NCBI RefSeq assembly: GCF_009649845.1
Contig: NZ_WJIE01000001.1
Coordinates: 791,054 to 855,053 of the forward strand
Direction: 5' to 3'
DNA length: 64,000 bases
Source of the DNA: Polyangium spumosum
Lineage (GTDB): Bacteria; Myxococcota_A; Polyangia; Polyangiales; Polyangiaceae
Both the position numbers and the translations under genes were made by a program. The notes beneath the pieces are model-generated. The model did no database searches. It was not told the origin of the DNA and saw nothing but the letters and a program-made list of their open reading frames with translations. Below are positions 50,845-56,734 of this stretch, piece after piece. Numbering within the stretch: position 1 is the first letter of the stretch; every line of letters begins with the position of its first letter.

Positions 50845-50863
50845 CTCGTCTCGTTGGACTGCT

Positions 50864-51250
50864 CACAGAAAATAGCCCAAACAGAGGTCGGAGCGACGGG
50901 AGCTGGCTTTGGGGGCACCCCAAACAGGGGTCCGGAGAGCTGGGGTGGTCTTTGGGGGCGCCCCAAATGGAGGTCCGGCGAGCCGGGGTGGTCTTTGGGG
51001 GCTCCCCAAACGGAGGTCCGGCCGGCCGGAGTTGTCTTTGGGGGGTCCCCAAACGGGGGTCCGGTCGGCCGGAGTTGTCTTTGGGGGCTCCCCAAACGGA
51101 GGTCCGGGCGGCCGGAGTTGTCTTTGGGGGCTCCCCATACGGGGGTCCGGGCGGGCGGACCTCTCTTTGGGCAAGCCCCAAACGTGACTTCAGGTGGCCG
51201 GACCTCTCTTTGGGCAAGCCCCAAACGTGACTTCAGGTGGCCGGACCTCT
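50864..51250. repeat. 43-bp hairpin tandem repeat array (eight units plus a degenerate one)
   Basis: Between two convergent genes (stops at 50844 and 51273) units of exactly 43 bp begin at 50907, 50950, 50993, 51036, 51079, 51122, 51165 and 51208; a degenerate unit precedes (50864-50906). Each unit starts C-T-T-T-G-G-G and contains a short palindrome TTTGGGG-N3-CCCCAAA (variants TTTGGGCAAGCCCCAAA). The last two units are identical. 43 is not a multiple of 3, so all frames are interrupted as proteins. No gene is visible in 50845-51272. Confidence 0.88.
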
Positions 51251-52080: not shown

Positions 52081-53628
52081 ATGAAGCCGACGCTGTGGGA
52101 GACGCTGAAGCGCCTGTTCTCCGCGGATTTCATGCCGCACGGACATTGTTATTTCTGGGAGCCGGGCCTCGTATGGCTCCAGGTGCTCTCGAACCTCGCG
52201 ATCGGCGCGGCTTACCTCTCGATCTCGCTCACCCTCGCGTACATCGTCCGCCGCATCCGGGACATACCTTTTCAATGGATGTACCTTTGTTTCGGGGTCT
52301 TCATCATCACGTGCGGGTTCACCCACTTCATGGACGTCTGGGTGATATGGACGCCCGTCTACTGGCTCGACGGATCCATCCGCGCCGTCACGGCCGTCGC
52401 GTCGGTGGGCACGGCCGTGCTGCTCTTTCCGCTCGTGCCGAAGGCCATCGCGCTCGCCGGCGCGGCGCGCCTGGCGCACGAGCGCGGCGTCCGCGTCGAG
52501 CAGCTCAACGTCGAGCTCGCGGCCCTCTACGAGAACACGCGCGAGACGCTCGCGGAGACGATCCCGCACCTCGTCTGGACCACGTCCCCGGACGGCACGC
52601 CGGACTATTTCAATCGACGGTTCATCGAGTATGCCGGGCCGGAGGTGGACCTCGAGACGGAATGGCACACGATCGTGCATCCCGACGACGTGGAGAGCGT
52701 GCTCGCGGGCTGGAGAGAGAGCCTCCGGACGGGTGACGCGTACGGGGTCGACGGCCGGCTGCGGCGCCACGACGGCGTCTACCGCTGGTTCCTCGTTCGC
52801 GGGCTGCCGCTCAGGGACAAACACGGCCGCATCGTGAAATGGTTCGGCACGTGCACGGACGTCGAAGAGGAGAGACGCATCGCCGAAGAACGCGAGCGGC
52901 TGCTCGCGCGGTCGCAGGAGGCCGTCCGGAGCCGCGACGTCTTCCTCGCCGTCGCCGCCCACGAGCTGAAGACCCCGCTCACCCCGCTGCGCTTCGAGGC
53001 CGAGCTGCTGCTCGAGTCGGCCCGGGAGCGGCGCCTCGACCGCTTGACGCCGGAGCGGCTGGAGAAACGCGCCGCCGTCCTCGAGCGGCAAACCCGGCGG
53101 CTCGAGGAGCTCGTCAGCGTATTGCTCGACGTCGCCCGCATCGCAGGCGGAAAGTTCGAACTCGCCCTCGCCGACGTGGACCTCGGCGAGGTCGTCCGCG
53201 AGGTCGTCCAGCGGCACAAGCAGGCGGCGAGGAGCGAAGGCGCCGAGCTCGAGCTCCACATCGCGGAGGGCGCCGTCGGGCGCTGGGATCGTCTGCGGCT
53301 CGATCAGATCGTCACGAATCTTTTCACGAACGCCCTGAAATACGGTCAAGGCAAGCCGATCACGGTGGAGGTGGAGGCGCGCGAGGACGTCGTGATCCTC
53401 CGGGTGAAGGACCGGGGGATCGGCATCGCGGAGGCGGATCAGGGGCGCATCTTCGAGCGGTTCGAGCGCGCGGCCTCCGAGCGGCACTATGGCGGCCTCG
53501 GCCTCGGGTTATGGCTCAGCCGAGAGCTCGTCACGGCGCTCGGCGGGACCGTCCGCGTGCAGAGCGAGCTCGGCGCAGGCGCGACGTTCACCGTGGAGCT
53601 GCCGCGCGCGCCGCGCTCTCCCGCCTGA
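52081..53628 (+). CDS. ethylene-receptor-like PAS histidine kinase
   Basis: A 515-aa histidine kinase. The N-terminal three-span domain (residues 20-110) matches the plant/cyanobacterial ethylene-binding domain: PHGHCYFWEPGLVWLQ, AAYLSIS, and ITCGFTHFMDVW with Cys 78 and His 82, the copper ligands of ETR1 (Cys65/His69). The residue corresponding to ETR1 Asp25 is Asn 38 and Pro36 is Ser 49, so ethylene affinity is uncertain. A PAS domain (about 155-275), HisKA ('AVAAHELKTPLTPLRFEAEL') and HATPase ('NLFTNALKYGQG', 'YGGLGLGLWLSR') follow. A single-domain response regulator is 59 nt downstream. Confidence 0.9.
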   Translation: MKPTLWETLKRLFSADFMPHGHCYFWEPGLVWLQVLSNLAIGAAYLSISLTLAYIVRRIRDIPFQWMYLCFGVFIITCGFTHFMDVWVIWTPVYWLDGSIRAVTAVASVGTAVLLFPLVPKAIALAGAARLAHERGVRVEQLNVELAALYENTRETLAETIPHLVWTTSPDGTPDYFNRRFIEYAGPEVDLETEWHTIVHPDDVESVLAGWRESLRTGDAYGVDGRLRRHDGVYRWFLVRGLPLRDKHGRIVKWFGTCTDVEEERRIAEERERLLARSQEAVRSRDVFLAVAAHELKTPLTPLRFEAELLLESARERRLDRLTPERLEKRAAVLERQTRRLEELVSVLLDVARIAGGKFELALADVDLGEVVREVVQRHKQAARSEGAELELHIAEGAVGRWDRLRLDQIVTNLFTNALKYGQGKPITVEVEAREDVVILRVKDRGIGIAEADQGRIFERFERAASERHYGGLGLGLWLSRELVTALGGTVRVQSELGAGATFTVELPRAPRSPA

Positions 53629-53687
53629 CGACGCAGGGCACCTCAAAACCGTAGAGCGCGAGAGCTCGAGGGGGCTATAGTCTCGTA

Positions 53688-54050
53688 ATGTGCCAGGTTC
53701 TCGTCGTGGACGATAACGAGGATATTCGCGAGACGATGCGGGATTTCCTGGAGGAAGAGGGGTACCACGTCGTGACCGCGAAAAACGGAGCGGACGCGCT
53801 CTCGCGGCTCGAGCAGCTCGAGGCGGGCAAGCTCCCCTGCCTCATGCTGGTGGATCTCCTGATGCCGGTGATGGACGGCGTCGAGTTGATCCGCCGGCTC
53901 CGTGAGAGCGCGCGGTTCGCCCCGGTCCCCGTGATAGCGATCTCGGCCGCCTCGACGGTGGATCCTCCCCCCGGGACACGGCTCTTGCCCAAACCCGTCG
54001 GCCCGACGGTGATCCTGGAGGAGGTGCGCAACGCCTGCGGCGCGCCCTGA
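53688..54050 (+). CDS. single-domain response regulator
   Basis: A 120-aa receiver domain without output domain: acidic pocket VDDNED, phospho-acceptor Asp in 'LMLVDLLMPVMDG', Ser/Thr 'VIAISAAS' and Lys in 'LPKPVG'. It is the likely phosphorylation target of the ethylene-receptor-like kinase encoded just upstream and may act on a flagellar, gliding or enzyme partner, as CheY/SpoF-type proteins do. Confidence 0.9.
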   Translation: MCQVLVVDDNEDIRETMRDFLEEEGYHVVTAKNGADALSRLEQLEAGKLPCLMLVDLLMPVMDGVELIRRLRESARFAPVPVIAISAASTVDPPPGTRLLPKPVGPTVILEEVRNACGAP

Positions 54051-54065
54051 AAGCGCGATCGAGGC

Positions 54066-54500
54066 TCATCCGTCGAGGCGTCTCGCGAGCTCCTCCAGGC
54101 GAGCCTGGATCTGCCCGCGGGCCGCGCGGAAACGCTCGATCATCTGCTCGCGTGATAACGTCGGGTCGTCACTCGCGGGATCGGGGATGGGCCAGTGGAG
54201 CCGCGGGACCTTGCCCAGAAAGACGGGACAAACCTCCTCGGCGCAGAGCGTGATGACGAGATCGACCGACACTGGCTCGATCGTGTCCACCGATTTCGAG
54301 GCGTGCGTGGTCAAGTCGATGCCGAGCTCGCGCGTCACTTCGATGGCGAAGGGGTTGACGCGGGACGGGCGGCTGCCGGCGCTCTGGACCCGGACGTGAT
54401 CACCAAAGAGCTTGCGCGCGAGGCCTTCCGCCATCTGGCTGCGGGCCGAGTTCGCGACGCAGAGAAACAGAATGCTCCTGGGGGTGGACATGGGCGTCAT
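54066..54500 (-). CDS. arsC: arsenate reductase, low-MW phosphatase fold (ArsC)
   Basis: A 144-aa reductase. The P-loop CVANSARS (Cys 14-Ser 21) carries the nucleophilic Cys and the Arg. Cys 86 and Cys 91 (CAEEVC) could form the redox relay, though spaced 5 apart rather than 7 as in Bacillus ArsC. Reaction: arsenate to arsenite, coupled to a small thiol reductant. Its ATG overlaps the acr3 stop (ATGA), so it is translated from the same transcript. It ends 15 nt from the stop of the response regulator. Confidence 0.92.
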
Positions 54501-55645
54501 CCGTGGGCCTCCGATTCCGTGGGGGTCTGCGCGCAGGGCGCCGGTACGACATCGACCCCGCCCGGGAAAAACCGCTTGCCCAGCCAGAGCGCGACGTGGA
54601 CGAGCCCGATCAGGACGGGCACCTCGACGAGCGGACCGATGACGGCCGCGAACGCCGCTCCGCTATGGATCCCGAACGTCGCGATGGCGACCGCGATGGC
54701 GAGCTCGAAGTTGTTCGACGACGCGGTGAAAGACAACGTGGCGGCCTGCTTGTAATTCGAGCCGACGCGCTTGCTCAGGAAAAACGAGACGAAGAACATC
54801 ACGACGAAGTAAATCAGGAGCGGCGCCGCGATCCGGAGCACGTCGAGCGGGAGCTCGACGATGGTCTCGCCCTTCAGGGAGAACATCACCACGATGGTGA
54901 AGAGCAACGCGACGAGCGTGATCGGCCCGATGCGCGGGACGAAGCGCTGCTGATACCAGTCGACCCCCCTGGAAGACACGAGCACCCGGCGCGTGAGGAA
55001 CCCGGCCGCGAACGGGACGCCCAGGTAAATGGCGACGCTCTTCGCGATCTCGAGGATGGTGATGTTCACGACCGCGCCCTCGAGCCCGAGCCAGGAGGGC
55101 AGGAGTGTCGCGAAGAAATACGCGTACACCGAGAAAAACAGCACCTGGAAGATCGAGTTGAAGGCGACGAGCCCGGCGCAGTATTCGGTGTCGCCCTTCG
55201 CGAGGTCGTTCCAGACGATGACCATCGCGATGCAGCGCGCGAGCCCGATGAGGATGAGCCCCAGCATGTATTCGGGTTTGTCGTGCAGGAAGAGCACGGC
55301 GAGGCCGAACATCAAGGCCGGGCCGATGATCCAGTTCTGCACGAGCGAGAGCGCGAGCACGCGATTGTTGCGAAATACCTGCCCGAGCTGCTCGTAGCGG
55401 ACCTTCGCGAGCGGGGGATACATCATCACGATGAGCCCGATGGCGATCGGGATCGAGGTCGTGCCCACGCTGAGGCGATTCAAGAACGCCGTGAAGCCGG
55501 GCGCCGCGTAGCCGAGGGCCACGCCGAGGCCCATGGCGAGGAAGATCCACAACGTCAGGTAACGATCGAGGAACGAGAGCTTGCCGGCGATGCCGGCGTT
55601 CGCGGATTGCATGTCGTCAGCTCGTCCTTGCTTCCGTTCGTTCAT
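54497..55645 (-). CDS. acr3: arsenite efflux permease (ACR3)
   Basis: A 382-aa polytopic permease (about ten spans) of the BASS/ACR3 group. The conserved Cys is in '[20 protein letters not shown]', and the segment '[20 protein letters not shown]' is family-typical. It exports arsenite across the inner membrane, using proton motive force. Start ATG 55645 (or 55612). The upstream 11 nt around the start (TCGACGATGAA in the coding sense) is the same as at arsR, suggesting co-regulation. No ArsA ATPase is present. Confidence 0.95.
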
Positions 55646-55677
55646 CGTCGATGATCGATGAAGAAGGCAAAAAAAAC

Positions 55678-56025
55678 TCAGAGCCCACCCACGAGCGCCT
55701 TGAGGCGCCGGAGGGCGGCGGGTTCGATGCAGTAACAGACACGCGGCCCGTCGACCTCGCCACGGACGAGCCCGGCTTCCTTCAGGATCTTCAGGTGTTG
55801 CGAGACGGTCGACTGCGCGAGCGGCAGCTCGTCCACGATGTCCCCGCAGATACACGAGGTCTTCCGGGCGAGGATGCGGAGGATCTGCACCCGGGCAGGG
55901 TGAGCAATGGCCTTGGCCAGCGCCGCCAGCTCCTCATCGGCCTCCCGCCCTTCCACCGGGCGCAGGTCCTGCGCGGTGTTCGGCGCAGGACAGCAGGAGG
56001 GCCCGGGGGGTGCGTCACCTTTCAT
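55678..56025 (-). CDS. arsR: ArsR-family repressor
   Basis: A 115-aa winged-helix repressor. The recognition helix is '[20 protein letters not shown]'. Cysteines are at 11-12 (SCCPAP), 58 and 60 (TSCICGD), and 97 and 99 (VCYC); the CxC in helix 3 is the classical arsenite site, and the C-terminal CxC may add a ligand. It should derepress the operon when As(III) binds. The inverted repeat ATCGTC/GACGAT just at its start codon is a candidate operator. It is the first gene of arsR-acr3-arsC, 32 nt before acr3. Confidence 0.93.
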
Positions 56026-56039
56026 CGTCGAAGGACGAT
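56024..56039. promoter_or_regulatory. inverted repeat at the arsR start (candidate ArsR operator)
   Basis: ATCGTC (56024-56029) and GACGAT (56034-56039) are perfect 6-bp inverted arms with a 4-bp spacer; the ATG of arsR is embedded in the first arm. The sequence TTCATCGTCGA occurs again at the acr3 start (55641-55651), which supports a regulatory site rather than chance. Confidence 0.5.
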
Positions 56040-56062
56040 ATAACGGCAGGGCGCAGGTCGCG

Positions 56063-56734
56063 TCAAGCGCCCTCGGCAGGACCGGCGATCGGCCCCTCGC
56101 GTGGGCCTCGAAGCAAACGCAGCGAGAGCTCGACATGCACGTCGGCCAGCGCGTCGACGGGGAGCTGCTCGGACGGCTCGTACCAGTATGGAATGCGCAC
56201 GCCCATCGCAGAGAGCGCCGCCAAGGTCGCCCCCTTGTCGGGGAGGGAAAAATGCCCCAATGCCACCCCTCGCTCGACGACCTGGAGGACGAGCGCCCTG
56301 GCCTCTTCACGAATCGCGAGCGCTGGAGCGGCGAGCTCGGCGCTCAACGAATAAATCTCTTCATTGACCACCACCGCCAGGTGCGGATACGTCGCGTGCA
56401 AGACGGTGTGGACACGAATGAGCGCGCACAGTTGATCGACCGGATCGGCGCCCGCGTCCAGGAGCGCCGCCCGCAAGGCGGATGCATGCACCTCGTGGCC
56501 CACGCGGACGAGCTCCGCGAGGACGTGATCCTTGGAGGGAAAGTGCGCGTAGAGCGCGCTCGGCTGCAGGTTCAGCGCCTTGGCCATGTCGCGGACCGAG
56601 GTGCCGTGAAAACCTCTGTTCGCGAAGAGCTGCAGGGCCACCTCCAGGATCCGTCGCCGCGTGCCCTCGGGCACGGAGGACGGCGGGAGGGTCGCCTTTC
56701 CAGCCCGCAGACGTGAGGCCCTGAGTGCGCTCAT
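56063..56734 (-). CDS. TetR-family transcriptional regulator
   Basis: A 223-aa TetR regulator: helix-turn-helix at about 25-70 ('[20 protein letters not shown]', '[20 protein letters not shown]') and an all-helical ligand domain of the kind that binds acyl-CoA or similar ('[20 protein letters not shown]'). It is transcribed divergently from the next gene and upstream of arsR, whose start is 37 nt beyond its stop. GAACGTTC (56752-56759) lies just before its start codon and may be its own operator. The target genes are unknown. Confidence 0.88.

Follow-up and report, generated by a model that had tools for sequence, protein, structure and literature searches.

The closest described relative in terms of layout is AzoEtr1 of Azospirillum brasilense, which in excerpts of its published description is a 525-aa EBD-PAS-HK protein with a lone 135-aa receiver downstream, and whose first 130 residues give saturable ethylene-binding sites in Pichia (PLoS Genet 2025, PMC11819568). 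The reference point for the membrane domain itself is ETR1 of Arabidopsis, for which excerpts of two papers give seven residues for ethylene binding, D25, I35, P36, I62, C65 and H69 among them (PMC11819568, PMC6586836). D25 is predicted to hold H69 in position and to form a pair with K91, and the excerpts state that mutation of either D25 or C65 eliminates ethylene binding (PMC11819568); a 2026 Plant J review, citing Aman 2025, instead describes the Asp-to-Asn form of ETR1 as a functional receptor with about 100-fold lower affinity (PMC13012798). The review also notes that natural variants at the Asp25 position exist, and it treats the propagation of copper-site changes across the helices as an open question (PMC13012798). 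Because AzoEtr1 shares the layout, the architecture of a kinase plus a lone receiver is already known as far as its excerpted description goes, and because natural Asp25 variants are already covered in the excerpted review, an Asn at that position alone is not new as such. What is new here, judged by alignment, is that the Asn of the locus described below belongs to a linked set of residues. Our search for myxobacterial ethylene receptors or Asn variants in the open-licence PMC literature, with subscription papers outside its scope, found no paper on this class. Azhar 2023 and Aman 2025 reportedly dealt with ETR1 D25N and with variants that occur naturally at this position.

We analysed a stretch of 64,000 nucleotides from Polyangium spumosum, referred to here as the window. 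A sensor histidine kinase of 515 aa with an ATG start is encoded at 52081-53628 (+), and a lone receiver of 120 aa at 53688-54050 (+), the two ORFs being separated by 59 nt. Pfam places the kinase in the ETR1_N family (PF25487, 120.7 bits, E 3.3e-35, against a cut-off of 27) and also matches PAS_3, HisKA and HATPase_c. All on the plus strand, the three-helix ETR1_N sensor domain covers residues 30-125 (52168-52455; helices from AlphaFold2), the PAS domain residues about 160-266 (52558-52878), HisKA with its AHELKTP H-box residues 285-356 (52933-53148) and HATPase_c residues 403-510 (53287-53610). The receiver matches Response_reg with 70.1 bits, and Pfam found no output domain in it. With HisKA, HATPase_c and a partner receiver that is conserved in a second genus, the protein has the make-up of a two-component histidine kinase, and the order of domains and genes given in a preliminary description of this DNA is borne out by the ORFs and Pfam. 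The same description had supposed a myxobacterial origin, with which the best named relatives of the kinase part, from Sorangium and Pyxidicoccus (49-52% identity), are consistent. A search of genome contigs with the whole protein returned 80 loci, all of them matching from query residue 126 onward, which is the kinase part, and a profile scan of these loci found no ETR1_N domain. The window's own ETR1_N domain is the sole one above the cut-off in its genome (10.76 Mb, 61 contigs), where two more places reach 13 bits, under the cut-off.

The surroundings of the two genes were also inspected. Convergent with the receiver are arsenic genes at 54066-56310 (-), namely an ArsC-like gene, an ACR3 gene (TIGR00832, 457.7 bits) and an ORF reading as an ArsR-type regulator. 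Upstream of the sensor there is a repetitive stretch at about 50850-51230, the frames of which read as GGSPNGGP..SLGAPQ-like repeat units.

The sensor residues were compared with ETR1 by alignment to the corresponding stretch of its sequence. In this alignment, Cys78 (52312-52314, +) and His82 (52324-52326, +) align with Cys65 and His69 and would thus be the Cu(I) ligands, Asn38 (52192-52194, +) aligns with Asp25, Ser49 (52225-52227, +) with Pro36 and Arg101 (52381-52383, +) with Lys91, while the Tyr32, Ile35 and Ile62 positions of ETR1 are kept as Tyr45, Ile48 and Ile75. With Tyr32, which we take to be the seventh residue of the ethylene-binding list, the window keeps five of the seven, D25 being replaced by N and P36 by S. 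The polar pair that Asp25 and Lys91 are predicted to form between helices 1 and 3 is absent as such; its positions hold Asn38 and Arg101, and there is an additional Asp97 (52369-52371, +) on helix 3, four residues ahead of the Lys91 position. Gln34 (52180-52182, +) corresponds to ETR1 position 21, and the lead PHGHCYFWEPG occupies residues 19-29 (52135-52167, +). The kept copper ligands, the Asn and Ser replacements and the lead are therefore as the preliminary description had them. Arg101 and Asp97 have no mention in it. Its interpretation is supported in part, the sequence agreeing with a domain of the ethylene-receptor type that retains both Cu(I) ligands.

A structural model of the sensor was obtained with AlphaFold2 from four sequences (mean pLDDT 77.5, pTM 0.51); the single-sequence model was poor (pLDDT 60, pTM 0.33). 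The four-sequence model has helices at residues 28-58, 65-90, 94-115 and 118-159, of which helix 1 holds N38, helix 2 C78 and H82, and helix 3 D97 and R101. In such a helix 3, D97 and R101 would stand at i and i+4 and could pair with each other, and we propose that this pairing would put the pair inside helix 3 in place of the pair from helix 1 to helix 3. A sequence search for a PDB relative of the sensor domain found none, the four matches (E 0.28-0.72) being antibody chains.

We then surveyed ETR1_N domains at E values up to 0.001. In the window's phylum 25 of 377 genomes have one (24 above the cut-off); the corresponding counts are 26 of 183 genomes of its order, 45 of 146 in the phylum of a Leptolyngbya genome, 29 of 398 in the phylum of a Methylomonas genome, 11 of 149 in a search centred on an Acidobacteria MAG, 26 of 144 in the phylum of a Bdellovibrionales MAG, 4 of 301 in a search centred on a Chloroflexi MAG (2 above the cut-off) and 4 of 12 mixed genomes; two class-level searches of the same class (6 of 57 genomes each) gave nothing new. 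A plasmid search returned 19 records, all below 60% identity, and a phage collection had no match to three queries. Group labels such as "cyanobacterial" refer below to the search that yielded a locus. Removal of 2 duplicates from 184 scanned matches gave 182 distinct domains; 15 of these had less than 60 bits or a gap at a key column and were excluded, so that 167 were counted. Outside that scan were L001, L003, L004, L031-L110 and L207-L218, which are repeat places, lie under the cut-off or lack ETR1_N. The Leptolyngbya-phylum set is without 15 places (two with 127 and 139 bits and 13 that do not exceed 62.3 bits), the Methylomonas-phylum set without one 29-bit fragment and the Bdellovibrionales-centred set without 8 of its 28 places. 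A later set, comprising 22 of 23 matches, was examined after the 167-domain counts.

Among the 167 domains (at least 60 bits, key columns filled), position 25 is D in 145, N in 21 and E in 1. Column 97 was counted within helix 3, four residues ahead of the Lys91 position, because MAFFT gaps ETR1 there. The window has Q21, N25, D97 and R91 together (its Q34, N38, D97 and R101), as do, the window included, seven of the eight myxobacterial N25 domains, which come from seven genomes. All four residues occur in 9 of the 21 N25 domains overall, and the cyanobacterial L260 and L264 have them with Pro36 kept. The eighth myxobacterial N25 domain, L027 (genome G362), shares D97 and R91 but differs in its Glu at position 21, and its copper Cys is replaced by Ala. 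In the 145 D25 domains, position 21 is His in 126 and Gln in 2, R91 occurs in 9, and D97 is never found with R91; D97 itself is present in 5 of these domains, compared with 14 of the 21 with N25. Outside Myxococcota, D97 is found in 6 of 13 N25 and 4 of 114 D25 domains (Fisher test with shared ancestry ignored, p 5.7e-5). This association is weaker when either Asp or Glu is counted (6 of 13 vs. 20 of 114, p 0.026, by the same test and again with shared ancestry ignored), because Glu97 is common among D25/K91 domains (21 domains). Furthermore, N25 does not require the other changes, since five cyanobacterial N25 domains (L147, L165, L242, L256 and L272) keep Pro36, Lys91 and Ser97. In the later set of 22, the sole N25 domain, L298, has Q21, Ser36, C65, H69, D97 and R91, and the 21 D25 domains include D97 in 3 (L288, L290 and L308), R91 in 1 (L290) and Q21 in 1 (L297). 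L290 thus combines D25 with both D97 and R91, which means that this pair does not need N25.

The history of these substitutions was followed on a quick tree built without the trait columns, which implies at least 12 changes of N25 and 8 of D97. By parsimony on this tree, five of the ten branches that gain N25 also gain D97, where 0.42 are expected and none of 20000 random placements reaches 5. Gains of N25 also coincide with loss of K91 on 3 branches (p 0.0125) and with Q21 on 2 (p 0.049). Among the ten N25 gains is one that belongs to a deep pair of gain and reversal, invoked by parsimony to account for two rows. When the seven myxobacterial rows were constrained together, the log-likelihood rose 70.6 above that of the free quick tree (p-AU 0.923). 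A better tree than the quick one therefore exists, and branch counts from the quick tree are approximate; they overstate the number of coincident gains if, as the data prefer, the myxobacterial rows form a single clade. With 9 and 8 gains placed at random, at least 3 shared branches arise in 1.3% of draws and at least 4 in 0.065%. The starred branches alone yield 3 independent pairs, too few for significance; on average D97 changes in the same direction in 1.9 of them and in the opposite direction in 0.0. A more careful tree of 45 rows has a starred group of 17 rows with L260/L274, L264 and L249/L257, and another starred group in which L202 joins L200 and L007, both apart from the myxobacterial N25 rows. 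This tree does not resolve most of those rows or L298, and many other forks are open.

Ser49 was considered as a further member of the linked set and was rejected. On the quick tree the class is adjoined by D25/K91 domains that have Ser36 (L011, L198, L199, L134, L259 and L262, from acidobacterial, cyanobacterial and myxobacterial searches; an 18-row group with support 92, not starred), and since Ser36 is common to these neighbours, Ser49 looks older than Asn38. Consistent with this, gains of a residue other than Pro36 coincide with N25 gains on 2 branches where 0.97 are expected (p 0.24), which does not support linkage. Asn38 and Ser49 had been listed earlier as separate oddities; Ser49 looks older, and Asn38 goes with Q34, D97 and R101. 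The cyanobacterial L263, with D25, D97, K91 and Gly for the copper Cys, also falls among the class on the quick tree.

The nearest ortholog of the sensor lies at L210:5595-6869 (-) in G475, a genome from another genus of the same family, as part of an operon with 68.7% identity to the window in the sensor, 59.7% in the kinase and 58.8% in the receiver. In this ortholog Gly (GGT) stands at the position of the window's Cys78 (TGC), while the His is kept, as is the remainder of the operon; the kinase has no PAS match by Pfam. The absence of the copper Cys from this ortholog indicates that the lineage is not bound to the use of copper. Comparison of window positions 43001-64000 with the G475 locus, about 6 kb on each side of the sensor genes, found nothing else in common, and the window's arsenic genes had no match in the 13 kb surrounding the operon in G475. 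Other loci gave weak matches to the same part of the window, or matches to the kinase and receiver only. L207, L208, L209 and L211, all from Myxococcota, share the sensor class of the window but are proteins of about 840-860 aa with the order sensor-HK-receiver-HK by Pfam, so that the receiver is inside the protein; their sensors are 52-64% identical to that of the window and their kinases 28-37%. L313, from the genome of L298 in the Bdellovibrionales-centred search, has the same sensor class and, by ORF reading, the same order of domains.

In canonical receptors, Asp25 of helix 1 is thought to position the copper-ligating His and to bridge to Lys91 of helix 3. The window has Asn at position 25, Arg101 as the base and, one turn earlier on helix 3, the carboxylate of Asp97, with which the base could pair instead. 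The reading we prefer, although we rate it at somewhat below an even chance, is that the window encodes a Cu(I) sensor kinase with weakened ethylene affinity and a carboxylate relocated to helix 3, which signals to the lone receiver. As the alignment suggests, Cys78 and His82 would coordinate Cu(I) within the three membrane helices. The small ligand that binds this copper would most likely be an olefin, ethylene or another, at a concentration higher than canonical receptors need. Movement of helix 3 would then pass through the PAS domain to the HisKA/HATPase kinase, and this kinase would phosphorylate the receiver of the adjacent gene, as its conserved domains and the conservation of the operon in a second genus suggest.

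A wider reading of the class is that Q21/N25/D97/R91 represents a natural rewiring of the ethylene-receptor switch that evolved more than once, the carboxylate that pairs with the base having moved from helix 1 to helix 3, and that these receptors, in Myxococcota, in one genome of the Bdellovibrionales-centred search and in two genomes of the cyanobacterial search, sense a different or much more concentrated ligand, in places dispensing with the copper Cys. We consider this rather doubtful as a whole and rate it lower because of L290, in which D25 stands with D97 and R91.

It is also conceivable, if unlikely, that the protein is a sensor of copper or copper availability, in which the fold and ligand pair would read Cu(I) occupancy and olefin binding would have been lost with Asp25 and Pro36. 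The copper ligands are intact while the Asp, mutation of which in ETR1 eliminates binding according to the excerpts (PMC11819568), is changed, and all seven Myxococcota members of the class have the HGHC lead, which lies outside the membrane helices. However, this lead is common outside the class too (99 of the 167 domains), the genes downstream are for arsenic and not copper, and the G475 operon is without the Cys yet keeps kinase and receiver. The same loss of Cys with the rest intact would suit a sensor of some other small ligand, such as a larger olefin or another gas, for which the N, R and D changes together with Ser for Pro would reshape the pocket and copper would be optional. That the four substitutions occur jointly in seven myxobacterial domains, each from a different genome, and recur in L298, L260 and L264 points in this direction as well, but the copper pair C65 and H69 is kept in 17 of the 21 N25 domains (and in 137 of the 145 with D25), and nothing seen in the neighbourhood points to a ligand, so that we hold this to be just as unlikely as a copper sensor. 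Finally, a decaying receptor, the sensor of which binds nothing while the kinase is driven by PAS or constitutive, is the least probable: two binding residues are lost, occurrence is patchy (G367, G369, G466 and G467 of the window's genus have no ETR1_N match) and relatives are broken or odd in G403 (where the sensor frame ends in helix 2 and runs straight into the receiver), G362 (L027) and G437 (L212, only the sensor of which matched the window kinase), but sensor identity exceeds kinase identity both in G475 and in L207, L208, L209 and L211, which is not expected from sensor decay, and G475 has kept the sensor without a PAS match.

ETR1_N domains without a kinase were encountered in the survey as well. 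Frames of 124-172 aa with this domain and no kinase are L216:5863-6378 (G372), L294, L295 and L300, all with D25. Three IMG/VR contigs carry stand-alone ETR1_N proteins, at L281:1995-2489, L282:1932-2381 and L283:2016-2423 (PF25487 at 72, 55 and 71 bits, respectively), with the copper Cys and His kept and no kinase in frame; none of the three had a PHROG match at E 0.01. The L281 contig has ORFs that, by reading alone, appear to encode a tape-measure protein and an integrase, with a beta-helix ORF just upstream of the ETR1_N gene and a PAS-like ORF just downstream. In L282 the gene adjoins an ORF weakly matching hol-like/spanin PHROGs, and in L283 it is near an ORF weakly matching an endolysin PHROG. 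An ethylene-receptor-like membrane protein of phage is noteworthy.

Returning to our preferred reading of the window as a Cu(I) sensor kinase of weakened ethylene affinity, we note that this fold and the copper pair are not by themselves sufficient grounds for calling a bacterial kinase an ethylene receptor. The proposed Asp-Lys partners change together in this natural class, where a new Asp also appears beside the base, and the class therefore offers a direct test of the model of signal propagation. Of the systems already described, AzoEtr1 is alike in its EBD-PAS-HK layout, lone downstream receiver and similar length, and its copper Cys and His align with those of the window; in the excerpted description it keeps D35 and K98 (ETR1 D25 and K91) and all seven binding residues, whereas the window has Asn38, Arg101 and Ser49, plus Asp97. 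Arabidopsis ETR1 shares the three helices and the C65/H69, Y32, I35 and I62 positions, and differs from the window in the latter's Asn for Asp25, Ser for Pro36, Arg for Lys91 and added PHGHC lead. ETR1 has a GAF domain where the window has PAS. The D25N form of ETR1 resembles the window in the Asn at the Asp25 position, but the window's class adds to it an Arg for the bridge partner Lys91 and an Asp one turn ahead.
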